Below, piece after piece: positions 2,926 to 17,721 of a DNA stretch of 25,051 nucleotides. The position numbers were made by a program, and so were the translations under genes. Each line of letters starts with the position of its first letter. Position 1 is the first letter of the stretch. Below the pieces are notes generated by a model. That model searched no databases. It saw only the letters and a program-made list of their open reading frames with translations, and had not been told where the DNA came from. Source of the DNA: a virus; the IMG/VR virus record IMGVR_UViG_3300032116_001225, positions 1 through 25,051 of that record. The stretch is one strand, 5' to 3'.

Positions 2926-5130
2926 ATGAATACACAACGAATGCTATCAGAGTCAAAGTTCTACATGGGTTACTCAAGATGGGATGACACCCTTCAGAGA
3001 TATGAAACGTGGGAAGAAGCAGTTTCTCGCGTGATGAATATGCATCGTGAGAAGTACAAGGACAAGATGACTCCTGAACTTTCGGAGGCAATTGACTTTG
3101 CGCAACAAGCATACAGTGAACAACTAATTCTAGCTGCACAACGCTCGTTGCAGTTTGGTGGTGAGCAACTTTTCAAGCACAATGCTCGCATGTACAACTG
3201 CAGTGTCAGTTATGCTGACAGACCTGAGTTCTTTCAGGAAGCAATGTACCTGCTGCTATGCGGATGCGGAGTAGGCTTCAGCGTACAGAAGCATCACGTT
3301 GAGAAACTACCTGAGATTCGAAGCAGAAGTAAAAAGCGCAGTAAGATTTTCACAGTACCTGACAGTATTGAAGGATGGGCAGATTCATTCGGTGTCCTGC
3401 TGTCTAGCTATCTGACGCATGACGCACCATTCCCTGCATATCAAAACTGTCAAGTACACTTTGACTTCAGCCAGATTCGTCCGAAGGGATCGCTGATTTC
3501 AGGAGGGTTTAAAGCCCCAGGTCCAGATGGACTAAGAAACGCACTGGTTAAGTGTGAAACATTGATTGAGAGCTATCTAGCTAAAGGTATTACAACCATC
3601 AAACCTCTGATGGCTTATGACTTTGTGATGCACATGAGCGATGCTGTTCTTTCCGGTGGTGTTCGACGCTCAGCTACAATTTGTGTGTTCGACAAAGACG
3701 ATCAGGAAATGCTCACAGCAAAGACTGGTAACTGGTTCATTGACAACCCACAACGTGGTCGTTCTAACAACTCTGCGATGATCATCCGTGATGAACTGAC
3801 AAGAGAAGAATGGGCTAATATCATGAAGTCAGTTAAAGACTTCGGTGAGCCAGGATTCATCTTCAGCGATAGTAAAGAGTTCCTTTTCAATCCTTGTGTT
3901 GAAATCGGAATGCTACCTAAAACAGAAGAAGGTGTCAGTGGATTCCAATTCTGTAACCTTAATGAAATCAACGGTGGTAAATGTGTTGACGTTGCGACGT
4001 TCGAGAGAGCGTGCAAAGCCGCAGCAATTCTTGGTACACTGCAAGCCGGATACACTGACTTCAAGTACCTGAGTCCAGCATCGAAACAGATTACTGAAAA
4101 GGAAGCTCTCATTGGTGTGAGTATTACTGGCTGGATGAACAACCCTGACATTCTTTTCGATGAAGAGAACATGATCAATGGTGCAACCATCGTGAAAGAA
4201 ACGAACGCAAGAATCGCTAAGCTAATTGGTGTGAACCAAGCAGCACGAACAACTTGTGCTAAACCTTCAGGTAACGCATCGGTTATTCTTGGTACAGCTT
4301 CGGGTATCCACGGTGAGCATTCACCTATGTTCTTTAGAAACGTTCAGATGAATGCAGACGACGAAGTTGTCAAGCTTCTGCGCAAGTACAATCCTAAGAT
4401 GATTGAAACTTCAGTGTGGTCGCCTAATGGTACAGACGTAGTAGTCAGCTTCCCGATTAAATCAAAGGAAGGGTCAATCTATAAGAATGACCTACTGGGT
4501 GTCAAGCAGCTTGAGTACGTGAAGCTTGCTCAGCAGTTTTGGGTTGAGGCAGGCACGAACGTTGAACTGTGTGTTGACAGCAGACTTCGCCACAACATCA
4601 GTAACACAATCACGGTAGACAATTGGGATGAGGTTGAACAGTACATCTTCGATAACAGAAAATACTTCGCTGGCATTTCACTACTAAGTTTCTTCGGTGA
4701 CAAGATTTACGCTCAAGCTCCATTTACGGAAGTGAAGACTGAGAAAGTAATCTTTGACGAGTACGGTTCGGGTTCAATGTTTGCATCAGGACTAATCGTT
4801 GAAGGTCTGAAAGCTTTCGACAACAAGCTGTGGTTTGCTTGTGATACTGCACTAGGAATTGGTGCTGTGCTGACAGAAGAACACGAAGACCTTCTCAAAA
4901 GAGATTGGGTTCGTAGACTTCAGAAGTACGCAGACAATTTCTTCGATGGTGATAAGACGAAAGCTACTTACTGTCTTAAGGATGTGTACAATCTGCACAA
5001 ATGGATCACAATCGAGAAAGCACTGGTTGAAATCGATTTTGCTAAAAAGATGCCTAAACAAGACTATGTTGAAGCAGATAGTCTAGCTAGTCAAGCCTGC
5101 TCAGGTGGCGCTTGCGAAATCACTTTCTAA
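2926..5130 (+). CDS. nrdJ: Adenosylcobalamin-dependent (class II) ribonucleoside-triphosphate reductase
   Basis: The 734-residue protein matches the monomeric class II reductases in length (Lactobacillus leichmannii enzyme about 739) and in active-site layout. It contains the early redox cysteine (C92, MYNCSV), the radical site N322-P-C324-V-E326 with the thiyl cysteine C324, its likely disulfide partner C343 (FCNLNEI), the SGGVRRSA motif at 243-250, the phosphate-binding KPSGNASVILGTASG at 446-460, and a C-terminal C725-x4-C730 pair six residues from the end that would re-reduce the active site. These enzymes make dNTPs from NTPs with vitamin B12 coenzyme, with no small subunit and no oxygen need. 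No nrdB-like or nrdD activase gene is present. AAGGA at 2912-2916 precedes the ATG. It supplies DNA precursors for phage replication. Confidence 0.93.
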   Translation: MNTQRMLSESKFYMGYSRWDDTLQRYETWEEAVSRVMNMHREKYKDKMTPELSEAIDFAQQAYSEQLILAAQRSLQFGGEQLFKHNARMYNCSVSYADRPEFFQEAMYLLLCGCGVGFSVQKHHVEKLPEIRSRSKKRSKIFTVPDSIEGWADSFGVLLSSYLTHDAPFPAYQNCQVHFDFSQIRPKGSLISGGFKAPGPDGLRNALVKCETLIESYLAKGITTIKPLMAYDFVMHMSDAVLSGGVRRSATICVFDKDDQEMLTAKTGNWFIDNPQRGRSNNSAMIIRDELTREEWANIMKSVKDFGEPGFIFSDSKEFLFNPCVEIGMLPKTEEGVSGFQFCNLNEINGGKCVDVATFERACKAAAILGTLQAGYTDFKYLSPASKQITEKEALIGVSITGWMNNPDILFDEENMINGATIVKETNARIAKLIGVNQAARTTCAKPSGNASVILGTASGIHGEHSPMFFRNVQMNADDEVVKLLRKYNPKMIETSVWSPNGTDVVVSFPIKSKEGSIYKNDLLGVKQLEYVKLAQQFWVEAGTNVELCVDSRLRHNISNTITVDNWDEVEQYIFDNRKYFAGISLLSFFGDKIYAQAPFTEVKTEKVIFDEYGSGSMFASGLIVEGLKAFDNKLWFACDTALGIGAVLTEEHEDLLKRDWVRRLQKYADNFFDGDKTKATYCLKDVYNLHKWITIEKALVEIDFAKKMPKQDYVEADSLASQACSGGACEITF

Positions 5131-10275: not shown

Positions 10276-13200
10276 TTATGTGCTAACAACTAGGCTATCA
10301 CCATCAGGTGTAAGTCTTTCGAAGATTCGGACAAGTTTTGCAAGATGCAAAGCAGTAGTCTTGGTATTAACTTCGAGTAGATCGATTCGACTCTGCAGAC
10401 TAAGATCACCTTCTGCGGTTGTACCCGTAGTCAGTGAAGGAAGAGTTCCTGTGTTAGTCAGCAGTCTTTGATTCAGAAGATTCAAAGCTTCAGTATTCTT
10501 TACCGTAGCTTCAACTGAACTCTTCTGCGTCTCAAGCACAAGTTGTTCCATTGAACTTCCACTGAACTTCTCAAGCTTCTCAGCAAACTCCATTACTTGC
10601 GCAAGGATGATTTGCTCCTGAGTCTGAGCTTCCTGTAGTGTTACAGCGTTACTTCTTGCCTTTTCGATTTCTCTAAGTGCAGCACCTTCGATCTTGTCAA
10701 TCGCAGAAAGATCACCGTTGCCAGCCATCGATAGGATGGCAGAGAATGATGTGTCCTCAGTCTGTCTACCTGTAACGAACTCACGAAGCTTTGCTCCACG
10801 AGACGTATATTGATCAACAAACTTGGTGTAATCTTCCTGTGCCTTCTTGGCGTCTTCTAGTGCCCATACCTGCTTTTGCAGTGCAGCAGCAGTTGCATCA
10901 AGAGTCTTGAGTTCCATCTCACGAAGAGTAACCGTATCACCTTGCAGTTCCAGAATCTGTCTTTGCAAGTTAGTGTAATCCGACATGCTGTCAGCTTGGA
11001 ATTCAATCATTTGAGAGAACGCACCTGACACACTGATCAAGTCAGCCAAAAGCTTTTGATCACCCGATGCCTTAATCTCGTCGACTAGCTTCCTGAAGTT
11101 CAGGATACTGTCAGGCATTGCAACACCGAACTTCTCAAACTCTTTACGTAGAACTTCAGTTACGTTAGCATTCTTCTCTTGAGCACTGTAGAACTTGTCG
11201 TAGTACACAGAAAGAGCTTCAGTTGCCTGATCTAGACTACCGAACAGTTGAACAAAACTATCAGCAGCTTTAAAGCCTGATACACTGGACTGATAAACAT
11301 TCCAACCTAGAAGTTTGAACGCTTCATTCATTTGCCCAAGTGTGCTTGACATTCTTGAGATGGTGTCACTTGCTGTTTCACCATATCTCTGGAACTCTGT
11401 CAGGTTAACAATCGAACTGACCATTGCATCACTGATTCGTTTGAATTCATCAGCAATAGCTTGAGCAGCGTCTTCATTTGACAAACCATTCAGGTTCAGT
11501 CTCATGTTGTAGCTGAAGGATGAAATTGCTTCTGTACCGATACCAAGAACACCCGCCATTTCTTCGACAGAGTTCTTTACAGTGAGATACTGAGCTTCGA
11601 TGCCACTACGTAGACCTTCGTCTAGTGCAGAAATGTTAGTAGAACGCTTGTCGCTTCTGAACACACCACCTTTTTGGAACAAGTCAGTGTATGAAACAAG
11701 ATTGCTTGCACCTGTACCCGTGAATGTACCCGAGATACCTGATTGATCAACCTTAGCTTGACTTCTACCGAACAGTTTTGAAATTACAGTTGATCCACTC
11801 AGAATGTTTGCAAGTTTATCACTGATACCTAACTTAGTCAGTGCATTCGTAACATCAGCACTCAGACCTGCACCAATACCTCCAAGTGGACCAAGGTCGT
11901 CTTGAAGTTGTCGTGCGCCAATCTTATTGAAACCCTGATCGTAGAACTTACCACCGACTTTGTATGCAGCAAGTGCAGCAAGTGCGTATGGTCCCATTGT
12001 AGCAAGACTCGGTAATGTGACACTTCCCAACGTAATTGGAGCAGCGGCAAATTTACCAATTGCAGCACCGATACCAATACCTGCACCAGCAGAAAGACCT
12101 CCTGACGCACCAGCAGCGGCAGCACCAGCAGGGCCGCCCATCATTGCATTCGCAAACGAATTGACAATAGGATTAATGAAAGCATCAATCTGAAGAGTAA
12201 TTCTCTGACGAAGAGCGTTTACGATCAGATCACGAAGTTTTTTCTTGGCTGCACCACCACCGTCAATAATGGCAGTAGCGATAACATCCGAGATAGACTT
12301 GCTGATTTCTTGCAGTTTCTTCAGGTAGTCTTCAGCAGCTTTATTTGAAGCATCACCCATTACTACTCTGATTCTATCTGCACGACGACGCAGTGCATCA
12401 TCTTGAAGTTCTTCAGCTTCAGCACCACCACGAGGTAACTTTCTCTGGATATCAGCGATTTCTTTTCTGTATTCAGCTTCAATCTTCAGAAGCTTAATCG
12501 TCTTGTCTTTTTCTTCGTTGGTTTTACCAATCAATGAAGCTTCAATTTCAACTTGAGTAATCGAATCAGCGACTTGCATGTTAAGCTTTTCGCTCTCTTC
12601 AGATAGACTCTGTTGAGCACGCAATACAGCTTCATGCTCGCGCTTCAATTCAGCTTGAGAAGCAGTGTACTCCCTGTTGATTCTGATATTCTTAGGTTGT
12701 TCTGCTGCCAATGCACGAAGTGCAGCGTTTACATTCTCTGTGCTTTCTCCAAACTCAAGTCCAGCTTCAATGATTCTTCTATAGTTTTCACTGTAAGTCG
12801 GAAGGTAGTCTTCTGACTTCAGGAAATACTTCTCAAGAACCGCCAAGGTTTTGATGCGATCTTTTTCGGCGTCATTGTTTTCTCTGGTCTTTGTTACCTG
12901 AACTTCATCAAGTTTACGAAGCCTTTCCATGTCTTTAGCAACAGCATCTAGATAACCACTACGAGATTCAGGGTTTGCAGTTTGACTAGCTAATACACTG
13001 TTCTTTCTGATACTTGCAACCAAACGTTCTCGTTCTGACATGTTGGCTTGAATAAGCTTCAGTGCGCCTTCGTCCAAGTCTCTTTGCTGTTTTGAATACT
13101 CAGCTTGGAGTTTCATTGACTCAGCAGCTTGTTGTCTCGCACGAAGTTCTGTTCTCAGAACATTCAATCTTTCCTGTGCTTGTTTCAGAAGTCTATCATC

Positions 13201-15489
13201 AGTCTTGATCCCGAACCAAGCTGACTGTCTCAGATTGGATTGAATATCATCAACACGATCCTGTGCTTCATCAACCATTCGCTTAAGTGCGCCTGTTGCA
13301 TCCCCACCATCTTTACGTGTAAGACCTTTAATGAAGCTGTCCCATGCATCACCCATCATTTTGGTGATATCAGCCCAGAACAAACCAAGTCCGCTCAGTT
13401 CATCTTTGATTGTAGCAACTTGTTCTCTCGTGATTCTTTCGTACTCAAGCACTGCTCTTTGACCAGCTTCGTACTCGTAACCAAGTCTTTGCAGTTGTTC
13501 GATCTGCTGAATTGTTTCAATGTTCACCATGCCCGTAGTGCGAGCAAGTTTTACCAGTGCATCTACCGGGTCTTTCTGAAGGTCACTGAAAGTCTTAACA
13601 GTTTTCTCGATGGCAACACCACCGTACTTCTCAAGCTCAATAGCAGCTTTAGCTACCATATTGATCTGAGTTGCTGTAAGGTCACCCTCTTTACCCATTT
13701 CTTGCATTACTTCAATGGATTTACCTGCTGAGAAGCCCATGTTTTCCAGGGCAGTAGCAGCAGCAAAACCTTGCGTTGTCGTAATACCTAGAGCACCATT
13801 TGTCAGAGCCATTGATCGAACAAACCTGTCGTTTTCACGAATGGCTTGGATCATACCGATTGGAATAGCCACCAGAGCAGCAGCGATGCCGAATACAATC
13901 GTACCAAAACCTAGGGTTGCAATTCTGAGCAGTGAAGCGTATAGACCTTGACCCGCTTTGTCAGCGGATTCCATCGCTACTCTCATTTGTTTCAATTCGT
14001 CAGACCTACCAACGATAGAAGCAAAGAAATTGATAACAGCATCGCCTGATGATACAATCGCACCCTTGAAGAAACCACCAATAGCAATCGAAGCATCACG
14101 GAATGACGAGGCGATCTGCTTTGCAGCTAGACCCATTGTCTTCGACAATTCTTTAGCATCAAGGTTAGCTTGCTGAATTGCAGCACGAATTTGGTCACCC
14201 TGTTGAATCATAACAATGAAAGGGTTTTGACCTGATGCAAGTGAAATACCAACGTCACCCATCTGCACAGAGACTGCACGAGCTAGGTTATCAGCATTTC
14301 TTTTATTCTCAGCTTCAGCTACTTTCTTGATGCCAACAGAAAGTTCATCGTATTTCTTCTTGGCTGCTTCAGCAGAAAGACCAGAGCGTTCGATGTTTCT
14401 ACGCAGTTTAGCCAGAGCATCAGTATAACGCTGGTTAATTGTGTTGCTGCTCTCGTTGAAATAAGTGTTAAGTCTTTGTTCTAGGTCAACTAGGTACTGA
14501 GTAGCCTTAGCCGATTCCATAGAAGCACGACGTTGTTTTTCAAGCGCAGATGCGTTGTTCAGGATCACACGAGCTTGGTCATCTGTAAGACCTTGCATGC
14601 GAAGTGAAGCACCTTGGTTCGCAACATTAGGACTGAATCCTTCGTTCAGGTACTGAGATTTGAATGCTTGTTGCTTTAGCAGTTCTTCCTGCTTTTTCAT
14701 CAAAGCATTTGTCTTTGCGATAGCAGTAGCTTTTTCATTCTCTGCTTCCAGAGCAGCTTTGGCTTCCTGGCGACGGAGTTCTTCCATCGCTTTTACTTGA
14801 AGCTCTTCCTTGGCCTTAGCTCTTGAAAGCTCGATTGTGTTCTTCGTTAGCTTTTCGATTTCAGCGTTGATCTGCTTGACTGATGAACCTTCAGCTTTCA
14901 TTGCTTCTGTAAGTCTTACGATATCACGAGACAGACCTGCAACTTCTTTTTGACTAAGGTTCAGACCTGAAGCCATTAGCTTGTTGATGTTCTCAAGCTC
15001 TTTGACTTCCTGCTGTAATGCCTTCATGTGACCAACTGATTTGTCAAACGGATTGACACCAGTGATCTTGTTCATGTCTTGGAATGCTTTAGCCAACTCT
15101 TTTAGTTCAGCAGTGGTAGCACCCATCAGTTTGGCAGCAGCCAATTGTGAAGACTGACCCTTTGTGAAACTGTCACCAAGCTTCAACATGCCATCAGCAG
15201 TGTCGATAGTTTGGTTACGCATTACCTTCAGTGTTGTTACTTGCTTCTCAACAGCACGAGCAGCTTTAGAACCAGAAGCTTCAGTATCATCGTTAGCCTT
15301 CTTGATCTTGTCGCTAGCTTTCTTGGTTTCATCAGCAACCTTTTCTACTTGTTGAGTAGACTTAGCGACACCCGCCAACGGCTTAGCCAGCCCACCAAGG
15401 GCTTCTCCTAGTTTGTTGATGTCAGCGATAGCAGACTTAACTGCACTAACATCGACACCAATTTTCAGTGTAGCTAGATCAAGAGACAT
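10276..15489 (-). CDS. Tail tape measure protein (1737 aa)
   Basis: This is the longest gene in the window. The protein is helical and Lys/Glu/Ala-rich over residues about 30-400. It has a segment at about 403-450 like the prophage tail length tape measure family (QMGDVGISLASGQNPFIVMI), a hydrophobic span near 522-546, more coiled coil (about 750-1080), and a Gly/Ala-rich hydrophobic region near 1110-1185. The C-terminal third is helical. It sets tail length and may help DNA pass the host membrane through its hydrophobic segments. Assuming about 0.15 nm per residue, as for lambda gpH, the tail would be near 250 nm. GGAG lies 6 bases before the ATG. It follows the two-frame chaperone, the normal siphovirus order. 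Confidence 0.92.
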   Translation of the reverse strand: MSLDLATLKIGVDVSAVKSAIADINKLGEALGGLAKPLAGVAKSTQQVEKVADETKKASDKIKKANDDTEASGSKAARAVEKQVTTLKVMRNQTIDTADGMLKLGDSFTKGQSSQLAAAKLMGATTAELKELAKAFQDMNKITGVNPFDKSVGHMKALQQEVKELENINKLMASGLNLSQKEVAGLSRDIVRLTEAMKAEGSSVKQINAEIEKLTKNTIELSRAKAKEELQVKAMEELRRQEAKAALEAENEKATAIAKTNALMKKQEELLKQQAFKSQYLNEGFSPNVANQGASLRMQGLTDDQARVILNNASALEKQRRASMESAKATQYLVDLEQRLNTYFNESSNTINQRYTDALAKLRRNIERSGLSAEAAKKKYDELSVGIKKVAEAENKRNADNLARAVSVQMGDVGISLASGQNPFIVMIQQGDQIRAAIQQANLDAKELSKTMGLAAKQIASSFRDASIAIGGFFKGAIVSSGDAVINFFASIVGRSDELKQMRVAMESADKAGQGLYASLLRIATLGFGTIVFGIAAALVAIPIGMIQAIRENDRFVRSMALTNGALGITTTQGFAAATALENMGFSAGKSIEVMQEMGKEGDLTATQINMVAKAAIELEKYGGVAIEKTVKTFSDLQKDPVDALVKLARTTGMVNIETIQQIEQLQRLGYEYEAGQRAVLEYERITREQVATIKDELSGLGLFWADITKMMGDAWDSFIKGLTRKDGGDATGALKRMVDEAQDRVDDIQSNLRQSAWFGIKTDDRLLKQAQERLNVLRTELRARQQAAESMKLQAEYSKQQRDLDEGALKLIQANMSERERLVASIRKNSVLASQTANPESRSGYLDAVAKDMERLRKLDEVQVTKTRENNDAEKDRIKTLAVLEKYFLKSEDYLPTYSENYRRIIEAGLEFGESTENVNAALRALAAEQPKNIRINREYTASQAELKREHEAVLRAQQSLSEESEKLNMQVADSITQVEIEASLIGKTNEEKDKTIKLLKIEAEYRKEIADIQRKLPRGGAEAEELQDDALRRRADRIRVVMGDASNKAAEDYLKKLQEISKSISDVIATAIIDGGGAAKKKLRDLIVNALRQRITLQIDAFINPIVNSFANAMMGGPAGAAAAGASGGLSAGAGIGIGAAIGKFAAAPITLGSVTLPSLATMGPYALAALAAYKVGGKFYDQGFNKIGARQLQDDLGPLGGIGAGLSADVTNALTKLGISDKLANILSGSTVISKLFGRSQAKVDQSGISGTFTGTGASNLVSYTDLFQKGGVFRSDKRSTNISALDEGLRSGIEAQYLTVKNSVEEMAGVLGIGTEAISSFSYNMRLNLNGLSNEDAAQAIADEFKRISDAMVSSIVNLTEFQRYGETASDTISRMSSTLGQMNEAFKLLGWNVYQSSVSGFKAADSFVQLFGSLDQATEALSVYYDKFYSAQEKNANVTEVLRKEFEKFGVAMPDSILNFRKLVDEIKASGDQKLLADLISVSGAFSQMIEFQADSMSDYTNLQRQILELQGDTVTLREMELKTLDATAAALQKQVWALEDAKKAQEDYTKFVDQYTSRGAKLREFVTGRQTEDTSFSAILSMAGNGDLSAIDKIEGAALREIEKARSNAVTLQEAQTQEQIILAQVMEFAEKLEKFSGSSMEQLVLETQKSSVEATVKNTEALNLLNQRLLTNTGTLPSLTTGTTAEGDLSLQSRIDLLEVNTKTTALHLAKLVRIFERLTPDGDSLVVST

Positions 15490-15569: not shown

Positions 15570-16350
15570 AGTGTTTTTCTTCATCTGTTTTTCTTGCTGC
15601 TTTCTCATGAAGTCCATGATTGCACCATCGAGCAGTCGAATCAGATCAACTTCCCATCGTCTAGGTGTAACATCGATTAATCTAAAGTAAGCATGCATGT
15701 CAGAGAATGAAATCGGGTTGTCGGTGAATCCATTACTTGATCTGTTGTTGTGTAGCTCAAGGAACCACACCCACACATCACGACAACTGTCAGGTAATTC
15801 TATAAGATTCTGTAGCTCTTTAGGAACTACACCTGTCATTCTCTCTACAGACTGAAGTTTATCCCTGGTTGTAGAACCATCAGCAGACCTTGTGTTGAGT
15901 GTAAACTCTTGCTTGGCATATTCGATGGTCTGTTCAATATCTTCAGGGTTGAAAGTAGAGGATGCTGTCGCTTTCCTCCATTACTTGATCACGAATCCAA
16001 GGATGCTTACGGAAGACTTCACGAGCAGCTTCTGCGGTAAATTCTACGTCCTTACCGTTGTCGGTGATACCACGCCAGCTAATCACTCGGACCACAGCCG
16101 AATTGATTGCCATTGTTTCGGCTTCTTCGATTGTGATTGTCTCGGGTTCTTTACCACGCTTTCTAGCAACAGAATCACGAGCCTGCATTTCAGCATAAGT
16201 CTTTCGAGCATAGTCCCTCACAGTCTTTGATTCAGGTCCACGAACTTTAATGAACGCACCAGTAGGTGTGTTTGACTTCGGGATCAATAGTTCGAATTCC
16301 GCACCAGCTTCGGCTGCTTCTGCAATGTTTGTTTTTGCTAGATCAAGCAT
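15555..16350 (-). CDS. Tail assembly chaperone G-T fusion made by +1 frameshift
   Basis: The frame with an ATG at 15839 is open much further upstream, past the end of the first chaperone frame. Translating through a +1 shift at CCC-TGA (15946-15948, 15943-15945) continues YFQP directly into EDIEQTIEYAKQEF, then LNTRSADGSTTRDKLQSVER, before MTGVVPKELQ. The continuation keeps the look of the phage chaperone extension (AKxEFTLNTRS...TTR...L). The predicted fusion is 264 residues: 135 from the first frame plus 129. In lambda the analogous G-T product is made by -1 slippage and is required for tail assembly without being in the virion. An independent start at 15839 is unlikely because the coding sense extends 35 codons upstream of it. 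Confidence 0.8.
15943..15948 (-). other. Candidate +1 ribosomal frameshift site CCC-TGA
   Basis: On the minus strand the first frame ends TTT CAA CCC TGA. Sliding the proline tRNA one base forward from CCC to CCT places GAA in the A site and opens the second chaperone frame. CCC followed by a slow stop codon is a known +1-prone arrangement. No Shine-Dalgarno-like stimulator is directly upstream; GGAGG lies about 25 bases before. Confidence 0.75.
15943..16350 (-). CDS. Tail assembly chaperone, unshifted product (gpG analogue)
   Basis: The 135-residue protein is acidic and helical in its C-terminal half (ITIEEAETMAINSAVVRVIS; DVEFTAEAAREVFRKHPWI), with a beta-like N-terminus (AEFELLIPK, TGAFIKVRGP). 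The AREVFRKHPWIRDQV ending fits tail assembly chaperones, placed between tail tube and tape measure genes. It would coat the tape measure protein and recruit tube subunits. Its stop TGA is preceded by the slippery CCC codon. It is the first gene after the promoter at 16405-16434, with AGGAG 5-10 bases before the ATG. Confidence 0.85.
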   Translation of the reverse strand: MLDLAKTNIAEAAEAGAEFELLIPKSNTPTGAFIKVRGPESKTVRDYARKTYAEMQARDSVARKRGKEPETITIEEAETMAINSAVVRVISWRGITDNGKDVEFTAEAAREVFRKHPWIRDQVMEESDSILYFQP

Positions 16351-16488: not shown

Positions 16489-17721
16489 TTAAGCTAGAGA
16501 GTCTTGAATACTGATCGTAGTTCTTTCAGTAGCTTGACCAGCACCACCAGCAGCATTCAACAGAGCCATGAAGCTGTGCTGTGCAGTGATACCTTGTTCA
16601 CCGTCGTCACGAGTGTTACTGTTCACTTTTACGCGAGGCAGAACAATCGTCATGAAGTCAGCGTTACCGGCTGATCCCGTTGAAAGGATAGCGATTAGCG
16701 ACACTTCAGTTTCGTTAACGAACAGATCACGGAAAGTTGAGTTCTCAAAGTAAGCAGAGAAGTCACCATCTACAGCTACACGACCTTCGAAAAGTTCAGC
16801 GATACTGTTTGAACCAACAACCGTTGCGTTTTGCAGGTTACGGTTGATGTTGATGTTCAGACTTGTCAGCAGAGCAACAGGAGCACCGTTAACCAGCATT
16901 ACACCTGAAACCGAAGCGAAGATACCAGAAGTACCCTGTGCAGTCGGTGAAGTGAAATATTGCGTAGCACCAGTTTGCGCAAGATCACGACCCGTGAAAC
17001 CGAAGTCACAAGTCACAAGACCTGTAGCCGGTAGAGCCATGCTCGCTGTGTTAACCTTCAGACCTGTGAACACTTCAGAAGCAGGAACATCACTGTACCA
17101 TTCTTCGAACGTGTATGAACGGTCAACGTGACCACTGGTAGGAGCAAAAGTCTTCTTACCAATTACGGCAACTGTAGCACCAGTAACTGCAGAACCTTCT
17201 ACTGCCATCGCTACACCGTTCAACGGGATAACGTTCAGCACAGTACCAGTTACAGAAAGCACAACCATGTTCTTGGCAGTGTTAGCGGCTTGGAAAGTAC
17301 CAGCAGTAAATCGAATTACGTCACCGATCTTAATGCCATCCGTCAACCATGAACCAGCAGCACGAGTTACGTTCCATGTTGAAACGCTACCGATTGCTAC
17401 ACCTGTTGCGATTGTGATGCTCAGAGTAGTGATAGGAGCTACAGTAGCGAAGTCACGGGATAGAGCAGCACCGAAGAAATCAGCGTAGCTACCGGGAGAA
17501 AGTTCACCACTTAGACTACCGTCAACGCTGCGAACACCGTGACGCATGTCTGCGATTTGATAGTCAGTACGAATCTCACCAGATTCATACGTTTCTTTTG
17601 TCAGGTTAAAGTTAGCTGTAACACGACGTAGCAGTTTGCCAGAAGCAGCACCCGCAAGTGTACCCCATGTCGTTTCTTGCTTGTAACCAACCTGCTTGTT
17701 TACACCTGTTGCAATTGGCAT
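16489..17721 (-). CDS. Major tail tube protein
   Basis: The 410-residue protein begins MPIATGVNKQVGYKQETTWG and contains YESGEIRTDYQIADMRHGVR (64-83) and SLSGELSPGSYADFF, features of the phage tail tube family (Phage_tube_2 type). The middle (about 105-195) is a beta-rich inserted domain with GIKIGDVIRF, common in this family. The C-terminal region (DGEQGITAQHSFMALLNAAG) is also typical. It polymerises around the tape measure to form the tail tube. It is followed by a strong terminator, which fits a protein needed in many copies. AAGGA precedes the ATG. Confidence 0.87.
   Translation of the reverse strand: MPIATGVNKQVGYKQETTWGTLAGAASGKLLRRVTANFNLTKETYESGEIRTDYQIADMRHGVRSVDGSLSGELSPGSYADFFGAALSRDFATVAPITTLSITIATGVAIGSVSTWNVTRAAGSWLTDGIKIGDVIRFTAGTFQAANTAKNMVVLSVTGTVLNVIPLNGVAMAVEGSAVTGATVAVIGKKTFAPTSGHVDRSYTFEEWYSDVPASEVFTGLKVNTASMALPATGLVTCDFGFTGRDLAQTGATQYFTSPTAQGTSGIFASVSGVMLVNGAPVALLTSLNININRNLQNATVVGSNSIAELFEGRVAVDGDFSAYFENSTFRDLFVNETEVSLIAILSTGSAGNADFMTIVLPRVKVNSNTRDDGEQGITAQHSFMALLNAAGGAGQATERTTISIQDSLA

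Follow-up and report, generated by a model that had tools for sequence, protein, structure and literature searches.

In phage lambda, gpG forms a coat on the tape measure protein while recruitment of the tail tube subunits falls to gpGT, and a small fixed share of the G-T fusion is needed for tail assembly. The window analysed here, a 25,051-nucleotide stretch of a freshwater phage (positions 1 to 25,051 of IMG/VR record IMGVR_UViG_3300032116_001225), carries a pair of this already known lambda type: two overlapping frames, G and T, both homologous to tail chaperones, are located between a tail tube-like gene and the tape measure gene, and T, which lacks a start of its own, reads as an extension of G, so that a short and an extended form would result. 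While lambda and most of its relatives shift by -1 on slippery heptamers, the family to which the window belongs would, however, shift by +1 on UUU_C.

Shifts of -1, -2 and +1 are all on record for tail chaperones (PMC5009743), and +1 slippage at UUU_Y is likewise an established kind of frameshift. The +1 shift at UCC_UUU_CGU of influenza A virus has been proven by mass spectrometry, and the same study predicted that UUU_C sites with a restricted choice of neighbours would form a class (PMC3498833); plant amalgaviruses have UUU_CGN (PMC5052127). With PA-X and the amalgaviruses the phage family has in common a P-site tRNA-Phe that would move from UUU to UUC, usually CGN in the A site, mostly a C before UUU and no adjacent Shine-Dalgarno sequence. 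Those are, on the other hand, eukaryotic RNA viruses, whereas the phage family would depend on bacterial translation and adjust the ratio of a structural chaperone; its E-site codon is AAC (UCC in PA-X) and the A site of the window is CAA. In bacteria, UUU_Ynn is especially prone to +1 shifting and is probably where YopN-TyeA shifts; UUU is also the shift codon of FseA of ICEMlSym (PMC5009743). Both resemble the phage family in a +1 shift at a UUU codon in bacteria, but concern other genes with other flanking signals, in FseA an upstream Trp-Gly motif.

Forward shifts in phage tail genes have been described at CCC_UGA in the tsh genes of Listeria phages PSA, A118 and A500 (PMC5009743) and at CCC_UAA in gp17.1* of SPP1 (PMC6316719). 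The window happens to carry CCC_UGA as well, but those are major tail protein genes and not chaperone genes, and CCC before the stop is unconserved in the family of the window. For the tail chaperone of the haloarchaeal phage HSTV-2, like that of the window family, a +1 shift has been proposed, in an archaeal host (PMC5009743). According to the authors of PRFect, no general motif is known for forward shifts (PMC10885494). The paper on phage P26059A is silent on frames and frameshifting (PMC5964084), and the word 'frameshift' is absent from that on phage DC31 (PMC12195039), these being the closest cultured relatives. No report of UUU_C or of a conserved AAC_UUU_CGN in phage tail chaperones was found in the literature examined, to which the tail chaperone survey of Xu and colleagues (2004) did not belong, and the novelty of this use of UUU_C is therefore not proven.

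The chaperone locus of the window

The genes of the tail module, including the chaperone pair, are all encoded on the - strand (Table 1). G starts with an ATG downstream of the Shine-Dalgarno sequence AAAGGAG and ends with TAC TTT CAA CCC TGA, its protein terminating in ...ESDSILYFQP. The T frame matches Pfam Phage_TAC_18 (E 1.8e-18) and the tail chaperonin family phrog_3817, while a single family of 271 positions, phrog_8233, covers both, matching G at positions 8-124 and T at positions 147-257, the pattern that a fusion should give. Of the flanking genes, the tape measure protein is the expected partner of the chaperone; phrog_290 bears the PHROG name minor tail protein, and the counterpart in relatives is annotated as major tail protein. 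In line with the original prediction, the second frame is open and protein-like before its first ATG at 15839, which lies 47 codons in and is preceded by no ATG, GTG or TTG.

Table 1. Features of the tail chaperone locus in the window.
Feature	Position	Strand	Remark
Tail protein gene, directly upstream	16489..17721	-	phrog_290 E 5e-62
Gene G, short tail assembly chaperone, 135 aa	15943..16350	-	ORF; phrog_313 E 4e-18
T frame, C-terminal chaperone domain, open from stop to stop, 141 codons	15555..15980	-	+1 relative to G
Overlap of the open frames of G and T, 38 nt	15943..15980	-	shift must fall inside
E-site codon TAC	15955..15957	-	codon of relatives mostly AAC
Candidate slip site UUU_C	15951..15954	-	UUU_Y in 81/81 +1 junctions
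P-site Phe codon UUU	15954-15952	-	
Codon UUC after the predicted slip	15953-15951	-	
Codon AAC, read next after the predicted slip	15950-15948	-	
0-frame A-site codon CAA	15949..15951	-	family mostly CGN
CCC TGA, stop of G	15943..15948	-	site named in the original prediction
Tape measure protein gene, 1737 aa, directly downstream	10276..15489	-	phrog_24 E 8e-46; Pfam TMP_2 E 1e-25

The gap that separates the tail protein gene from G holds an intrinsic terminator-like hairpin (16477-16448, - strand), immediately followed by a 12/12 match to a sigma-70 promoter (16434-16405, - strand; TTGACA-18-TATAAT with TG), so that the chaperone genes may be transcribed separately; the annotation of Mannheimia phage 1152AP2 likewise shows a terminator in this position. 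Another hairpin with a T-rich tail, symmetrical on both strands, is located between T and the tape measure gene (15569-15549, - strand). Elsewhere in the window, a 734-aa protein (2926-5130, + strand) weakly resembles class II ribonucleotide reductase domains, in matches that stay below the threshold.

Conservation of UUU_C among relatives

A tblastn search detected homologues of either G or T among cultured phages, and alignment-based scans of IMG/VR provided 160 loci, where scans with single proteins had provided few. IMG/VR loci and isolates together yielded 90 distinct junctions, 81 at +1 (the window included) and 9 at -1; the 81 correspond to 42 clusters at 80% identity and are related, so that counts among them are not independent. 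A nucleotide search of phage records recovered merely two weak matches near the chaperone locus, and a scan of GTDB genomes no prophage relative. T is offset by +1 in the closest cultured phages, Limnohabitans phage DC31 and Curvibacter phage P26059A, and by -1 in phages of Pasteurella, Mannheimia and Vibrio and in the Bradleyvirinae; the cultured family members infect freshwater Comamonadaceae. The chaperone pair with a +1 offset near the 3' end of G, as originally predicted, is thus confirmed. T is conserved across relatives including the part that precedes any start codon, which makes the pattern more than chance, and the first ATG, GTG or TTG of the relatives' T usually lies tens of codons past the slip site. 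In the available annotations, the T part of DC31 (L006 1609-2085) is without any CDS, and T of P26059A (L007 1586-1738) is annotated from an internal start and thereby shortened.

In each of the 81 +1 junctions UUU_Y is found in frame within the overlap (74 UUU_C, 7 UUU_U), where stretches of equal length elsewhere in these genes lead one to expect 1.5 by chance. The usual motif is AAC_UUU_CGN: the codon before UUU is AAC in 65/81 and AAT in 8/81, and the codon after it is CGN in 57/81 (CGA 38, CGC 15, CGT 4), otherwise often CAA (8) or CAG (6), while elsewhere in these loci TTT accounts for 51% of Phe, AAC for 45% of Asn and CGA for 8% of Arg codons. AAC is thus preferred to AAT by 65:8 although the T frame does not read the base by which they differ. 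The stop of G, UGA in 77/81, follows 1-8 codons, and usually 1-5, beyond the slip codon. UUU_Y is the sole codon of the overlap that permits re-pairing in 58/81 junctions; where the overlap is as short as 11 nt, the T frame opening directly after a stop, at ACTTTCNNTRA (11 junctions), this codon is UUU_C and a shift is possible nowhere else.

Substitutions in 144 close pairs point to the same place. Rates by codon position are 0.10/0.04/0.32 for the G frame upstream and 0.15/0.11/0.32 for the T frame downstream, the periodicity of the T frame is already visible in the first 40 nt past UUU_C, and UUUC (positions 0 to +3) is invariant, which together place the change of frame at UUU_C. The window, with TAC_UUU_CAA at 15957-15949, belongs to the UUU_C class in having a 0-frame UUU followed by C and a downstream frame at +1. 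Its site is nevertheless the least typical, with TAC where AAC is usual, CAA where CGN is usual, and CCC_UGA two codons further on; owing to CAA in the A site, the strict UUU_CGN motif fits the family but not the window itself.

Signals that could assist the shift are few. Within 20 nt upstream of the slip codon, the Shine-Dalgarno-like motifs GGAG, GAGG and AGGG occur in 0/80 and AGGA in 4; a GGAGG about 25 nt upstream was considered as a stimulator and dismissed, as it encodes a conserved Glu-Glu and is too distant. RNA structure downstream of the slip is not unusual in the window, and the family mean z of -0.9 to -1.1 is a weak tendency that we read as no clear stimulator; a structural stimulator is possible in some family members. 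The window encodes no tRNA. The likeliest aid in most members would be CGA, slowly read in the A site, a pausing role that we infer, as CGA also encodes the T-frame residue after the slip; its enrichment may come in part from the overlapping T-frame Asp codon. Transcript slippage on a homopolymer was discarded, the site having only three Ts.

Alternative readings of the junction

The original prediction had located the shift at the stop codon of G, where tRNA-Pro would slip by +1 on CCC_UGA, helped by slow termination. Its coordinates, frames and peptide are correct, a +1 step there entering the same frame without a gap and giving FQP-EDIEQTIEYAKQEFTLNTRS, and CCC_UGA has been proven to shift by +1 in Listeria phages and supports 15% shifting in E. 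coli pheL (PMC5009743), with CCC_UAA of SPP1 as a further precedent (PMC6316719). However, the comparison with related phages, which the prediction itself had proposed, finds CCC directly before the stop in 1/81 junctions, namely that of the window, versus UUU_Y in 81/81; the relatives share UUU_C though they have no slippable codon ahead of the stop, and the CCC of the window is accounted for by a T-frame Pro codon (NPED; DPSE and DPND in relatives). Regulation in the manner of prfB, through RF2 or the state of tRNA-Pro, finds no comparative support either, as the stop lies at varying distance, 1-8 codons, past the slip and the Shine-Dalgarno sequence just upstream that characterizes the CUU_UGA of prfB has no counterpart within 20 nt. 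That the ribosome slips at CCC_UGA, or leaks at both UUU_C and CCC_UGA, is accordingly considered unlikely, with CCC_UGA as a minor second +1 site possible in the window phage alone. What had been recognized is a real +1 chaperone frameshift, placed two codons too far downstream.

Other ways to obtain T are far less probable still. A -2 shift, as in phage Mu, would reach the same frame as +1, and more distant homologues use -1 heptamers as most tail chaperones do, but -1 gives the wrong frame in the window, an in-frame X_XXY_YYZ is present within the overlap in 2/81 +1 junctions, and in 2/81 the Phe tRNA could pair again after moving back by two bases, the window requiring tRNA-Phe on ACU; backward slippage is thereby highly improbable. 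The chance that T is a separate protein made from the ATG at 15839 without fusion appears equally slight: P26059A and other records annotate T from an internal ATG, yet a start at 15839 forfeits at least 38 conserved residues (YAKQEF etc.) and is preceded only by a weak, abutting GAGAGA, the coding periodicity of T begins at UUU_C, and 13 relatives have T frames without any ATG. The window being a metagenomic contig, one gene might have been split by a sequencing or assembly indel, but the IMG/VR contig L002 has 100% identity to the window over 5405 bp and is gapless across the junction, which makes an assembly indel unlikely, and some 80 further distinct junctions, those of the isolates DC31 and P26059A among them, have the +1 offset too, so that an artefact can hardly be entertained.

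Proposed mechanism and direction of the shift

Very probably, then, peptidyl-tRNA-Phe slips by +1 at UUU_C and a G-T fusion of the lambda-type G/GT pair is produced. Most ribosomes would read G through to UGA and make the short 135-aa chaperone, whereas a minority would slip by +1 at TAC_UUU_C, the peptidyl-tRNA-Phe re-pairing from UUU to the overlapping UUC while the next codon, CGA in most relatives, waits in the A site. Reading would continue with AAC CCU GAA... to a 264-aa fusion, ...DSILYF-NPEDIEQTIEYAKQEF..., with the predicted junction ...ILYF-NPEDIEQ... in the window and the junction peptide DQVMEESDSILYFNPEDIEQTIEYAK. Were the ribosome to slip at CCC_UGA, the fusion would be equally long, with Q replacing N and a junction peptide 14 Da heavier, so that the junction peptide alone tells the two sites apart. 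By analogy with lambda, coating the tape measure protein would be the task of the short chaperone and recruiting tail-tube subunits that of the T domain, and the frequency with which tRNA-Phe slips by +1 from UUU to UUC would determine the share of the fusion.

In relatives with a -1 offset, the corresponding position is taken by a classic heptamer: G_GGA_AAC in Pm86, G_GGA_AAG in Mannheimia phages, A_AAU_UUC in L022 and U_UUU_UUC in the Bradleyvirinae. Pseudomonas phage PaMx28 (L013, about position 1210-1225) has six Ts where its Bradleyvirinae relatives have seven in U_UUU_UUC, so that its offset becomes +1/-2 rather than -1; this reflects either an error of sequencing or genuine variation. 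Three close relatives at -1 (L097, L145 and L182) have A_AAU_UUU where their kin have AAC_UUU_CGN, and are placed among +1 members in the tree, which requires three changes of direction, two of them forced by starred branches. As a single +1 clade is not rejected by the AU test (p 0.10), repeated switching of the shift direction is only suggested by the sequences. On balance, we slightly favour the view that this tailed-phage family possesses an autonomous AAC_UUU_CGN +1 cassette, devoid of a Shine-Dalgarno sequence and of conserved structure, as the bacterial counterpart of the PA-X/amalgavirus class, whose direction may flip to -1 (A_AAU_UUU) on the same Phe codon.

Forward shift sites within genes are hard to spot, and the site allows annotators to repair a T gene that is missed altogether in DC31 and truncated in P26059A. 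The family moreover offers dozens of natural variants in which the slip codon stays fixed amid changing E-site and A-site codons, so that the determinants of slippage at UUU_C in bacterial translation could be tested on an existing set of sequences. A switch between -1 and +1 at one Phe codon would, finally, illustrate how the required protein ratio can persist through a change of mechanism.
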